Positions 1,293 through 42,620 of a stretch of 64,000 nt of DNA are shown one piece after another (positions within the stretch are counted from its first letter, which is position 1; each line of letters starts with the position of its first letter). The DNA is from Leptotrichia hongkongensis (GTDB lineage Bacteria > Fusobacteriota > Fusobacteriia > Fusobacteriales > Leptotrichiaceae), in contig NZ_AP019846.1 of the NCBI RefSeq assembly GCF_007990635.1, positions 558,001 to 622,000 of the forward strand. Reading direction: 5' to 3'. The position numbers and the translations under genes were made by a program. The notes beneath the pieces are model-generated. The model did no database searches and was not told the DNA's origin. It saw only the letters and a program-made list of their open reading frames with translations.

Positions 1293-2639
1293 TTATTGAA
1301 GGTTTTTCAGAAGCATTGTTGCAAATTTAAAATAGATAATAAGTGTTACAGCATCTGAAATAGTAGTTATTAAAGGAGTTGCCATAACAGCTGGATCTGC
1401 TTTTAAAATTTTTGCTCCAAGTGGAAGCAATGCTCCTACTATTTTTGAGATTATTATTGTAAATACAAGAGTTATTGAAACAATAAAGGCGATTGTAGGA
1501 TTTATTTTTTCCAAAGTAATCAGTCTTACAAAATTTAAAACTGATAGGACTATTGAAACCATAATACCTATTGAAAATTCTTTTCTAAGTACTTTGAATG
1601 CATCTTTTGGAGAAATTTCCCCTAGTGCTAGTGAACGGATTACAACAGTTGAAGATTGTGACCCAACATTTCCTCCGCTTGACATTAACATTGGAATAAA
1701 TGCTGTCAAAATAATTGATTTTGCAAGTACTTTTTCATACCCTTGTATTATATTTCCTGAAATTGTGTCAGAAATCATAAGGACTGCAAGCCATCCAATT
1801 CTTTGTCTTGCCATTGTAAACACGTTTGTCTTTAAGTAAGAATCATCAGTAGAAGAAGTAATCCCCGCCATTTTATGAAAATCTTCAGTAACTTCCTGAT
1901 CGACAACATCCATTACATCATCTACTGTGATAATTCCTAAAATTCTGCCTTCATAATCTACAACGGGCATAACGATAAAATCATATTTTTTGAACAAATC
2001 TGCAACAACTTCCTGATCGTCATCTGTGTGAACACTTACAAATTTTTTGTTCATAATATCTTCAATTACTGTATTGTCTTTTTTTGCAATTAATTCTTTT
2101 AGTGAAAGTACTCCCTCGAGTTTTCCATTTTCACTTGTGACATAGCATGTATATATATTTTCTTTATCTTTTCCTGTTTTTCTTAATAATTCAATTGCTT
2201 CTGAAACAGTCATATTTTTTTGAAAATCGACATATTCAGTTGTCATAATGCTTCCTGCTGAATTTTCAGGATACTTTAATAGTTGATTTATCAAATGTCT
2301 GTCTTTTTTATCAGTATTTTTCAATATTTTCTTTACAACATTAGACGGCATTTCTTCAATAATGTCAACAATATCATCAAAGTACAGTTCGTCAAAGATT
2401 TCACGTGTTTCAATATCAGTCGATGCATGAATAATCATTTCTTGACGTTCTGAATCCAAATATGGAAATACATCTGCTGCTTTATCTTTTTTCAACAGTC
2501 TAAAAATCATTATCACAAGTTCAGGCGATTTGAACTGATTTAATATATCAGAAATTTCAACTGTATTTAATTCGTTTAATTGTTTTTTTATTTCGAAGTA
2601 TTTTTTTTCTTTTAAAAGAGCTTCAATTATTTCTTTCAT
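1293..2639 (-). CDS. mgtE: Magnesium transporter MgtE (second gene of tandem pair)
   Basis: A 448-residue MgtE Mg2+ channel. An N-terminal superhelical domain (about residues 1-130) precedes two CBS domains (about 135-260) that carry GSIMTTEYVDF and GIITVDDVMDVVDQEVTEDFHKM. About five membrane helices follow from residue 280. The pore region shows GGNVGSQSSTVVIRSLALGE, and the last helix keeps an Asp in TTISDAVT. In the family, cytosolic Mg2+ bound between the N and CBS domains closes the pore in the inner membrane. It lies 45 nt after a close paralogue on the same strand with only a ribosome site between (AGGAGGAAAAATG), so the two are probably co-transcribed. Confidence 0.95.
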   Translation of the reverse strand: MKEIIEALLKEKKYFEIKKQLNELNTVEISDILNQFKSPELVIMIFRLLKKDKAADVFPYLDSERQEMIIHASTDIETREIFDELYFDDIVDIIEEMPSNVVKKILKNTDKKDRHLINQLLKYPENSAGSIMTTEYVDFQKNMTVSEAIELLRKTGKDKENIYTCYVTSENGKLEGVLSLKELIAKKDNTVIEDIMNKKFVSVHTDDDQEVVADLFKKYDFIVMPVVDYEGRILGIITVDDVMDVVDQEVTEDFHKMAGITSSTDDSYLKTNVFTMARQRIGWLAVLMISDTISGNIIQGYEKVLAKSIILTAFIPMLMSSGGNVGSQSSTVVIRSLALGEISPKDAFKVLRKEFSIGIMVSIVLSVLNFVRLITLEKINPTIAFIVSITLVFTIIISKIVGALLPLGAKILKADPAVMATPLITTISDAVTLIIYFKFATMLLKNLQ

Positions 2640-2684
2640 TTTTCCTCCTTACTTTCCTATTTTTTATTTATAGATACTTAATAT

Positions 2685-4031
2685 TTATTTTATGATGTTG
2701 CTCAAAAATATAGTTGCAAATCTAAAATAGATAGTAAGAGTTAAGGCATCAAGTATTGTAGTTATTAATGGACCTGCCATTATTGCTGGATCCATTTTAA
2801 AGGTTTTGGCAATGATAGGCAAGAAAGCACCTATTATTTTTGAAATTATAACTACAAAGACAAGAGTTACCGAAACTGTTATGGCAACATTCAAAGGGGT
2901 TTTTGTCAAAGATATAATCCTTAGAAAATTAATTGCTGCCAGAACAATGGCGACTATAAATGAAATAAGAAACTCTTTTCTTAGTATTTTAAAAGTATCT
3001 TTTATATTGACTTCTCCTAATGCTAAAGCACGGACTACAATGGTTGAAGATTGTGCTCCTGCATTTCCTCCAGTATCCATAAGCATTGGAATAAATGAGG
3101 AAAGTATAACTACAGACTGCAGTACATCCTCGTAACTTTTTATAATTCTTCCTGTAAATGTGGCAGAAATCATAAGCACAATAAGCCAGCTGATTCTCTG
3201 TCTTGCCATAGTAAAGGCGCTTGTCTTAAGGTAAGACTCCTCAACTGGTGAAATTCCGACCATTTTATGAAAATCTTCTGTTGCTTCCTGTTCCACAACG
3301 TCCATTATGTCATCAATTGTAATTATCCCAAGAAGCCTGTTTTCATCATCTGTAACTGGAAGAACAATAAGATTATATTTTTTTATTATTTCAGCGACTT
3401 TTTCCTGATCGTCGTTTGCGTGTACAGATATTACATTTTTATTCATAATACTTTGGATAGGAACGTCATCTTCGCTCGTAATAAGTTCCTTTAAGGAAAT
3501 TACTCCTTCCAGTTTTCTAACTTCATCAATTACATAACAAGTATAAACATTTTCCATATCTTCAACAGTATTTCTGATTTTTGAAATTGCTTGAGATACA
3601 GTCATATCCTTTTTTAAATCCATGTATTCGGTTGTCATAATACTTCCCGCTGAATTATCAGGATATTTTAACAATTGGTTTATCAAATGTCTATCTTTCG
3701 CATCAGTATTTTTCAAAATCTTTTTTACTACATTTGACGGCATTTCTTCAATAATATCGACAATATCATCAAAATAAAGTTCATCAAATATATTTTTTGT
3801 TTCAACATCGGTCATAGTGTTAATAATCATTTCTTGATGCTCTGTATCCAAATATGAAAACACATCTGCTGCCCTATTTTTAGAAAGTAGCCGAAAAATC
3901 ATTATTAATTCAGAAGATTCAAACTGATTTAACAGTTCTGAAACTTCAACAGTATTTAATTCATTCAAATATTTTCTGATTTCAAAATATTTTTTTTCAT
4001 TTATAAGTGTTTGAATAGTGTTGTTTTCCAT
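2685..4031 (-). CDS. mgtE: Magnesium transporter MgtE (first gene of tandem pair)
   Basis: A 448-residue MgtE, very similar throughout to the downstream copy (shared blocks include DELYFDDIVDIIEEMPSNVVKKI and ATEDFHKMVGI). It has the same N-domain, CBS pair and membrane pore, with GGNAGAQSSTIVVRALALGE. I start at ATG 4031, not the in-frame upstream ATG at 4055, because AAGGAG sits 6 nt before it (minus strand, 4043-4038). Upstream lies a long leader with its own promoter, a short ORF and a segment complementary to this ribosome site, so translation of this gene is probably controlled. Tandem paralogues may differ in Mg2+ affinity or ion preference; the sequence does not say. Confidence 0.95.
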   Translation of the reverse strand: MENNTIQTLINEKKYFEIRKYLNELNTVEVSELLNQFESSELIMIFRLLSKNRAADVFSYLDTEHQEMIINTMTDVETKNIFDELYFDDIVDIIEEMPSNVVKKILKNTDAKDRHLINQLLKYPDNSAGSIMTTEYMDLKKDMTVSQAISKIRNTVEDMENVYTCYVIDEVRKLEGVISLKELITSEDDVPIQSIMNKNVISVHANDDQEKVAEIIKKYNLIVLPVTDDENRLLGIITIDDIMDVVEQEATEDFHKMVGISPVEESYLKTSAFTMARQRISWLIVLMISATFTGRIIKSYEDVLQSVVILSSFIPMLMDTGGNAGAQSSTIVVRALALGEVNIKDTFKILRKEFLISFIVAIVLAAINFLRIISLTKTPLNVAITVSVTLVFVVIISKIIGAFLPIIAKTFKMDPAIMAGPLITTILDALTLTIYFRFATIFLSNIIK

Positions 4032-4032
4032 C

Positions 4033-4103
4033 GTTATCTCCTTTCTTTTTTGCAATTTATTAAATTTTTTACTTCTTATGCAAATTAAAACAAGGAGAAT
4101 AAC
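4033..4103 (-). promoter_or_regulatory. Predicted hairpin sequestering the mgtE ribosome site
   Basis: On the minus strand GTTATTCTCCTT (4103-4092) is complementary to the mgtE ribosome site AAGGAGATAAC (4043-4033). They give 11 pairs with one bulged T. Flanking T-rich and A-rich tracts can extend the helix, and the loop is about 48 nt. The anti-ribosome-site arm begins 18 nt after the stop of the short leader ORF, so a ribosome paused on the leader could affect folding. The complementarity is seen directly; regulation is inferred. Confidence 0.55.
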
Positions 4104-4121
4104 AACACGAAGAGATTCCGT

Positions 4122-4184
4122 TTATTTGCATAGGTTAGTAAATTTTAGATTATTCAGTTTCTCTTCCGGGACTTCTTCGTTCAA
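4122..4184 (-). CDS. Candidate mgtE leader peptide (20 residues, acidic/Pro start)
   Basis: A short ORF in the mgtE 5' leader, too small for ordinary gene calling. A strong ribosome site, GGAGG (4197-4193), is 8 nt before TTG at 4184. A GTG at 4193 would overlap the site, and ATG at 4189 gives only Met-Phe-stop. From the TTG start the peptide begins M-NEEVPEEK and ends FTNLCK. Glu-rich runs broken by Pro at the N-terminus are the kind of nascent chain known to destabilise ribosomes at low Mg2+, as described for E. coli MgtL (MEPDPTPLP...). The match in context (a magnesium gene), size and composition suggests an analogous sensor. Expression is not shown by the sequence. Confidence 0.5.
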   Translation of the reverse strand: MNEEVPEEKLNNLKFTNLCK

Positions 4185-4251
4185 AACATTCACCTCCGTA
4201 AAATATAAAATCAGCATAAATTTCTAAAAAAATGAACTTTATGCCCATAAA

Positions 4252-4280
4252 ATTTTATCAGACAAACCAATGATTGTCAA
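4252..4280 (-). promoter_or_regulatory. Promoter of the mgtE operon
   Basis: Minus strand TTGACA (4280-4275), 17-nt spacer, TAAAAT (4257-4252), with TG one base before the -10 (extended -10). The predicted start is near G4246. The transcript would open with a hairpin (GCATAAA pairing with TTTATGC) and have an approximately 215-nt leader before mgtE. Confidence 0.8.
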
Positions 4281-42217: not shown

Positions 42218-42225
42218 GATTTAGT

Positions 42226-42434
42226 CATACTAGCTGGGGAGTTAGCGGTGCCCTGTATCTACAACCCGCTTTAGTAGAGGTGATGTCAAATTTGAGGAAA
42301 GTTTTAGTGTCAACGCCTTATTTCAAAAGTGTTGAGAAAATAGTCCTGTATTGTAGAGAGTTAGCGAAACGTGTCAGGTCGGGAACGAAGCAGCACTAAG
42401 TTAGTTTCTCTAGGTTTATAGGGTAGCTGTTTTT
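42226..42434 (+). ncRNA. ffs: Signal recognition particle RNA, large form with Alu domain
   Basis: The apical domain reads GTGTCAGGTCGGGAACGAAG followed by CAGCACTAAG, the conserved Ffh-binding helix 8 with GGAA tetraloop. The usual closing pairs TCC/GGA are replaced by TCG/CGA, which keeps pairing. The 5' part (GGGGAGTTAGCGGTGCCCTGTA) looks like an Alu domain, so this is the long bacterial form, not 4.5S. CCTGTA and TATAGG pair across the long helix 5. It ends in GTAGCTGTTTTT. Ends are approximate. Confidence 0.88.
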
Positions 42435-42620
42435 GAGCTTTTGGATTTAAGAAACAGACGGTAAAATATTTTCGAGAATTTGATGTATGACTTTTTATTT
42501 AGATAATTACAATAATATTTTAAAATTAGATTTATTTAGCTTAATTTTAAAAAGTTGAGAGTGTTTTAATAAAAGTTCTTTTAAGTTATAGTTTCTTTTG
42601 CTATGAATGGAGGTTTCATA

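Follow-up and report, generated by a model that had tools for sequence, protein, structure and literature searches.

The stretch of DNA analyzed here (hereafter the window) comprises 64,000 nt of the genome of Leptotrichia hongkongensis, whose genus lives in the mouth (contig NZ_AP019846.1), and carries, on the minus strand, two tandem genes for MgtE paralogs that are 67% identical to each other. The first of the pair (2685–4031), a Mg2+ channel gene with MgtE, MgtE_N, and two CBS domains in Pfam searches, is the gene predicted to be regulated, and its product is 77–99% identical to its orthologs, with the closest named relative being Leptotrichia sp. oral taxon 879 (99% identity). The second mgtE (1293–2639), also identified with Pfam, lies 45 nt downstream and is probably cotranscribed with the first. 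Across Leptotrichia, the tandem pair behind a single leader (1293–4031, minus strand) is retained. The first mgtE is preceded by a leader of ~215 nt on the same strand, starting from a near-consensus promoter (TTGACA-17-TAAAAT, 4252–4280, minus strand; 11/12 in a consensus scan) that all 15 orthologous leaders share. A hairpin formed by GGCATAAA and TTTATGCT (4213–4245, minus strand) was present in the fold of the window sequence and lies at what is likely the 5′ end of the transcript. By eye, this hairpin was found in most Leptotrichia, was absent from four genomes (G005, G007, G012, and G040), and in G010 its end pair had apparently changed from G-C to A-U. Elsewhere in the window, a large bacterial SRP RNA was located at 42225–42490 on the plus strand (RF01854, 145.6 bits).

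Within the leader, a 20-codon open reading frame (the uORF), encoding MNEEVPEEKLNNLKFTNLCK, extends from a TTG start at 4184 to a TAA stop at 4122 (4122–4184, minus strand) and follows a GGAGG ribosome site (4193–4197, minus strand) that is kept in the alignment. The promoter, leader length, ORF, and GGAGG, as well as the 11-pair helix over the mgtE ribosome site described below, had been reported in a first-pass annotation of this DNA, and all were found in place. A covariance-model search of 98 Fusobacteriota genomes recovered the leader in all 13 Leptotrichia species examined, one of which has a leader nearly identical to that of the window, plus a further two genomes of Leptotrichiaceae (G022 and G040). 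There was one copy per genome, always before the orthologous mgtE, and no copy was found before any other gene in the 98 genomes. The expectation of the first-pass annotation that a short ORF with an acidic start would be conserved in orthologous leaders was borne out in 15/15 cases: the promoter, GGAGGT, TTG start, and the invariant residues MNEE were present in every one of these leaders, which represent three genera, and [VI]P followed in 14 of them.

The uORF was 20–25 codons long in all leaders except that of G040. Its frame was open in 15/15, while the other two frames contained stops in nearly all species, and pS/pN was 1.85 in the uORF frame versus 1.34 and 1.07 in the other two, which together lend modest support to the uORF being coding. 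At codons 2–6, constraint on the peptide is inseparable from constraint on the RNA, because these codons also build one of the helices described below (P1). The acidic residues after NEE differed among clades, and in one clade (NEEVPSK) the start of the peptide had just two of them. In G040 (L046), the uORF begins MNEETG, such that the proline is lost, and the frame extends to 41 codons, past the anti-SD; the switch logic may therefore differ in this genome. The stop of the G040 uORF is located 14 nt before mgtE. No acidic uORFs were seen on more distantly related members of the mgtE family or on G019. The uORF contained no run of a single codon of the kind used by trp/his-type amino-acid attenuators, and the leader strand had no intrinsic terminator.

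RNAalifold, applied to the alignment alone, returned two helices, P1 and P4. P1 joins AACGAAGAAGTCCCG (codons 2–6; 4167–4181, minus strand) to CGGAATCTCTTCGT, situated just past the uORF stop (4107–4120, minus strand), and both arms were also recovered in pair counts. P4 joins the anti-SD GTTATTCTCCTT (4092–4103, minus strand) to the mgtE ribosome site AAGGAGATAAC (4033–4043, minus strand) through 11 pairs with one bulged T, and the corresponding duplex was present in all species. For the window, the duplex formed by the 16-nt anti-SD stretch had an energy of −13.6 kcal/mol, which was reached by 20 of 2,000 shuffled anti-SD strings. A third helix, P3, absent from the first-pass annotation, was found between TATGCAAAT at the end of the uORF (4124–4132, minus strand) and ATTTGCATA beyond the anti-SD (4077–4085, minus strand). 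P3 had 8–11 pairs in every Leptotrichia leader, crosses both P1 and P4, and exhibited compensatory changes, with G-C, G-U, and A-U pairs at one position and A-U, U-A, and G-U pairs at another. Across the 14 distinct leaders, 96.7% of the P1, P3, and P4 cells were paired, versus 44–58% when the partners were slid by one to three columns. The window sequence itself folded only mildly better than its shuffles (z −1.9), so it is the comparative evidence that carries the case, and the compensatory changes anticipated in the first-pass annotation were indeed seen in the alignment of leaders. That annotation had also proposed exclusive folds, in which ACGAAGA (4180–4174) and GAAGAGA would each pair with the same stretch after the ORF. 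Here, the ACGAAGA arm, which pairs with TCTTCGT, proved to be conserved as part of P1, while the GAAGAGA arm was not conserved and the competing helix was instead P3. As a second exclusive arm, GAAGAGA was absent from the MNEEVPS clade (which has CCGAGTAAG or CCGAGTCAG), from G022, and from G040.

Two features of P1 bear on whether the RNA itself could be the sensor: it retains a conserved mismatch and bulge, and its 3′ strand, outside the ORF, is invariant. Moreover, in G040 the V-P codons have become T-G and P1 is still pairable (CCGGTC with GATCGG, in a hand alignment), while an altered SD is still matched by an altered anti-SD. Because G040 has lost the proline yet can form P1, the role of the proline codon may be in the RNA stem, as shown for mgtQ, in which this codon acts through an RNA stem and not through the amino acid (PMC8092293). 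The conserved irregularities of P1, and pairing that stayed while the G040 peptide changed, are what one would expect of an unclassified riboswitch that senses Mg2+ or another ligand, with the ORF being incidental or only opening P1. However, Rfam searches of the leader at both gathering and permissive thresholds gave no riboswitch match, the structure consists of three simple helices with no conserved junction or loop, and the reading frame and MNEE were kept in all species, such that we regard this alternative as improbable.

We evaluated the choice of fold as a function of ribosome position using a truncated window RNA that ends just after P3, with the ribosome placed as a mask at given codons. 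Ribosome position determined in silico whether P1 or P3 formed. With no ribosome, the probabilities were 0.67 for P1 and 0.05 for P3; with a ribosome at codons 0–8, P3 rose to 0.83–0.85 and P1 was gone; and with a ribosome from codon 12 on, P3 fell to 0.00 and P1 returned, reaching up to 0.71. In most other species, P3 formed by default in the truncated RNA, and a ribosome near the uORF end abolished it in 13/13 Leptotrichia. The masked folding of the truncated RNA thus suggests that ribosomes that dwell or are lost early favor the open state, while completed translation favors the closed state and, for the window, so does the absence of translation. Since the ribosome-free window folds into P1 plus P4, the OFF state, simple departure of the ribosome would not free the mgtE site, contrary to the first-pass annotation, in which a ribosome leaving the leader, or else stalling on it, would do so.

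At equilibrium, the full-length window RNA always favored P4: wherever the ribosome was placed, the free fraction of the SD was 0.02. In all species, P3 was the weaker of the two helices (−7.5 kcal/mol, versus −17.6 kcal/mol for P4, in the window). Because equilibrium folding of the full-length window RNA never switches, we infer that the switch must be kinetic, with P3 acting while the RNA is being transcribed. No base belongs to both P3 and P4, which makes their mutual exclusion topological and not certain, and they might coexist as a pseudoknot. The dominance of P4 at equilibrium would also suit a constitutive brake, where the uORF merely tunes basal expression and there is no regulated switch, but P3 would then lack a role despite its compensatory changes, and the acidic start is invariant; this reading appears highly improbable. 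We likewise consider it very unlikely that the uORF governs Rho-dependent termination in the leader, with the SD helix being secondary. While MgtL, the best studied acidic/proline Mg2+ leader, acts in this manner via Rho (PMC11282234), a transcription-only mechanism has no need of the helix over the mgtE SD that is kept in all species, and a scan of the minus strand of the leader turned up no intrinsic terminator from the uORF to mgtE.

We therefore favor, with a probability of roughly 60%, the interpretation that this region is a translational attenuator of mgtE run by a leader peptide. The strong ribosome site would load ribosomes that translate the 20–25 codon uORF with its acidic start, and those that reach the uORF end would cover the 5′ arm of P3, leaving the anti-SD to pair with the mgtE site in P4 and turning mgtE OFF. 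If ribosomes were instead lost early, the incoming ribosome would hold P1 open while the uORF end stayed free, and P3 could then form around the anti-SD, such that the mgtE site would be open and the gene ON. This model would require continued initiation together with early abortion. The likeliest trigger would be low Mg2+, predicted to destabilize ribosomes carrying an acidic nascent chain, as with MgtL and as proposed for mgtQ; hence, the acidic start of the uORF probably makes ribosomes fall off when Mg2+ is scarce, which would unmask mgtE. In E. coli and Salmonella, ribosomal protein L31 counters the destabilization of ribosomes by acidic chains, and an L31 gene is present.

Beyond the Fusobacteriota, we analyzed 75 clostridial loci with mgtE genes that encode 46–57% identical proteins, using 227 other genes from the same loci as controls; these loci are not phylogenetically independent, which applies to all of the enrichment counts that follow. 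At 29/75 mgtE loci, there was a uORF whose first residues included an acidic one and, after it, a proline; once two matches evidently due to chance (L079 and L112) were set aside, the count was 27/75, versus 5/227 control genes (p = 6e-14). When the pattern was reduced to an acidic second residue, its plainest form, the counts were 42/75 and 23/227 (p = 4e-15), while in the same clostridial loci there was no enrichment of uORFs in which the second residue is basic or an amide. The clostridial uORFs had the consensus MDSGPLP, with variants including MDPIPLP, MEPVPKP, MEPHPEP, and MDDIPL, and 17 of the 27 had a proline at position 7, outside the search pattern, encoded by CCT, CCC, or CCG. These uORFs (L063–L107) were mostly 90–145 nt upstream of mgtE. 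A second class of uORF, beginning MDAGSS, MDAGDS, or MDAGST, was seen before ruminococcal/oscillospiral mgtE genes (L104, L115, L124, L129, L130, L135, and L139), and the motif MDAG[SDP] occurred at 9/75 mgtE loci versus 0/227 controls.

In 13 of 25 clostridial leaders, one segment could pair with both the mgtE SD and a segment at the uORF end, each time better than in all 100 shuffles of the given leader. Examples include L074 (AGAGCCA/TGGCTCT/GGGCCA) and L067 (GAGAACCAT/ATGGTTCTC/GAGAAC). Competition would be strict in these leaders, because the bases of the anti-SD are shared. Ribosome-masked folding of the clostridial leaders gave no clear trend, with early positions having no advantage over late ones (Wilcoxon p = 0.89). 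Many of the clostridial uORF stops sit 11–16 nt before mgtE, such that the anti-SD is overlapped by a ribosome in a late position.

The M-box (RF00380) is a riboswitch in the leaders of the Mg2+ transporter genes that it controls, mgtE among them, and, to our knowledge, includes no uORF. Neither the window nor any of the Leptotrichia genomes examined had a match to its covariance model. The premise of the first-pass annotation that MgtE genes are usually under M-box control did not hold among relatives: M-boxes were present in 18/98 Fusobacteriota genomes, none of them Leptotrichia, and near mgtE in 7/57 clostridial loci scanned. At three clostridial loci (L063, L098, and L103), a single mgtE was preceded by both an M-box and an acidic/proline uORF, arranged in tandem, so that two different Mg2+ sensors, one of them putative, could be compared in one leader.

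The anatomy of the uORF attenuator might also respond to a signal other than Mg2+, be it a charged tRNA, a drug, a different cation, or general stress on translation, with early slowing or loss of ribosomes favoring P3. Indeed, the RNA logic requires just early dwelling or loss, and the acidic residues past NEE are those that differ among clades. Nevertheless, the gene behind the leader is a Mg2+ channel gene, the uORF has no single-codon run with which to read a tRNA, and acidic or acidic/proline starts recur on clostridial mgtE and match known low-Mg2+ abort motifs (PMC11282234), so that we view a different signal as rather unlikely. Returning to Mg2+ as the signal, we consider the chances about even that mgtE is widely regulated in Clostridia and Leptotrichiaceae, in a manner so far undescribed, by acidic or acidic/proline leader peptides that abort translation when Mg2+ is low. 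Such regulation would be coupled to a switch of the ribosome site where the uORF ends, and would replace the M-box or add to it. The clostridial acidic uORFs were detected separately from those of Leptotrichiaceae and are apparently undescribed; the literature searched, with most subscription papers beyond reach, contained no account of a uORF before a bacterial mgtE, such that priority is not proven.

The leaders known to sense Mg2+ via the stability of translating ribosomes are few and enterobacterial (MgtL and mgtQ). If our interpretation is true, this strategy would be a general one that extends to other phyla, and the leaders would provide a natural sequence panel for establishing which nascent chains destabilize ribosomes. 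With respect to the M-box, both it and the Leptotrichia element belong to leaders of Mg2+ transporter genes, while the Leptotrichia leader is without an M-box. The mgtE motif, a riboswitch candidate reported only in Thioalkalivibrio, resembles it in being a structured element that reaches the mgtE ribosome site, but is set apart by its description as a riboswitch candidate and not a uORF (PMC11109978).

The closest parallels were with enterobacterial leader ORFs. In mgtQ, the 8-codon uORF of Salmonella mgtCBRU, Asp2 and Glu5 lower translation of the uORF itself and raise that of mgtB via alternative stems (PMC8092293). The Leptotrichia leader shares with mgtQ a short ORF with a strong SD before a Mg2+ transporter gene (in 15/15 leaders, with translation predicted), acidic residues and a proline codon near the start, the latter within an RNA stem, a stem that hides the ribosome site of the transporter gene, and the lack of a terminator; alternative stems compete with the hiding stem in mgtQ and may do so in Leptotrichia (PMC8092293). 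In contrast to mgtQ, its uORF is in a 5′ leader and not between genes, has 20–25 codons and a TTG start, and is not linked to mgtB, the transporter being MgtE and not the P-type ATPase MgtB; moreover, the putative competing helix brackets the anti-SD, whereas in mgtQ it pairs with the anti-SD. Given the other transporter family, the other phylum (the hosts being Leptotrichiaceae and not enterobacteria), and no visible sequence homology, we did not file the Leptotrichia leader as a member of mgtQ.

MgtL of mgtA in E. coli and Salmonella likewise has an acidic/proline start before a Mg2+ importer gene, and in E. coli its EPDP destabilizes ribosomes at low Mg2+, leading to Rho-controlled readthrough (PMC11282234). 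The comparison with MgtL, drawn already in the first-pass annotation, is strengthened by the acidic/proline uORFs on clostridial mgtE, among which MDPIPLP and MEPVPKP resemble EPDP (PMC11282234). The Leptotrichia peptides have NEEVP and not EPDP, EPDP-like motifs being found in clostridial leaders only, and while MgtL works by Rho-dependent termination, the Leptotrichia leader masks the mgtE ribosome site. The earlier reading was thus partly supported, being right in outline with the corrections given above, and the Leptotrichia leader is best read as a putative translational attenuator like mgtQ and MgtL that acts on another transporter in other phyla.
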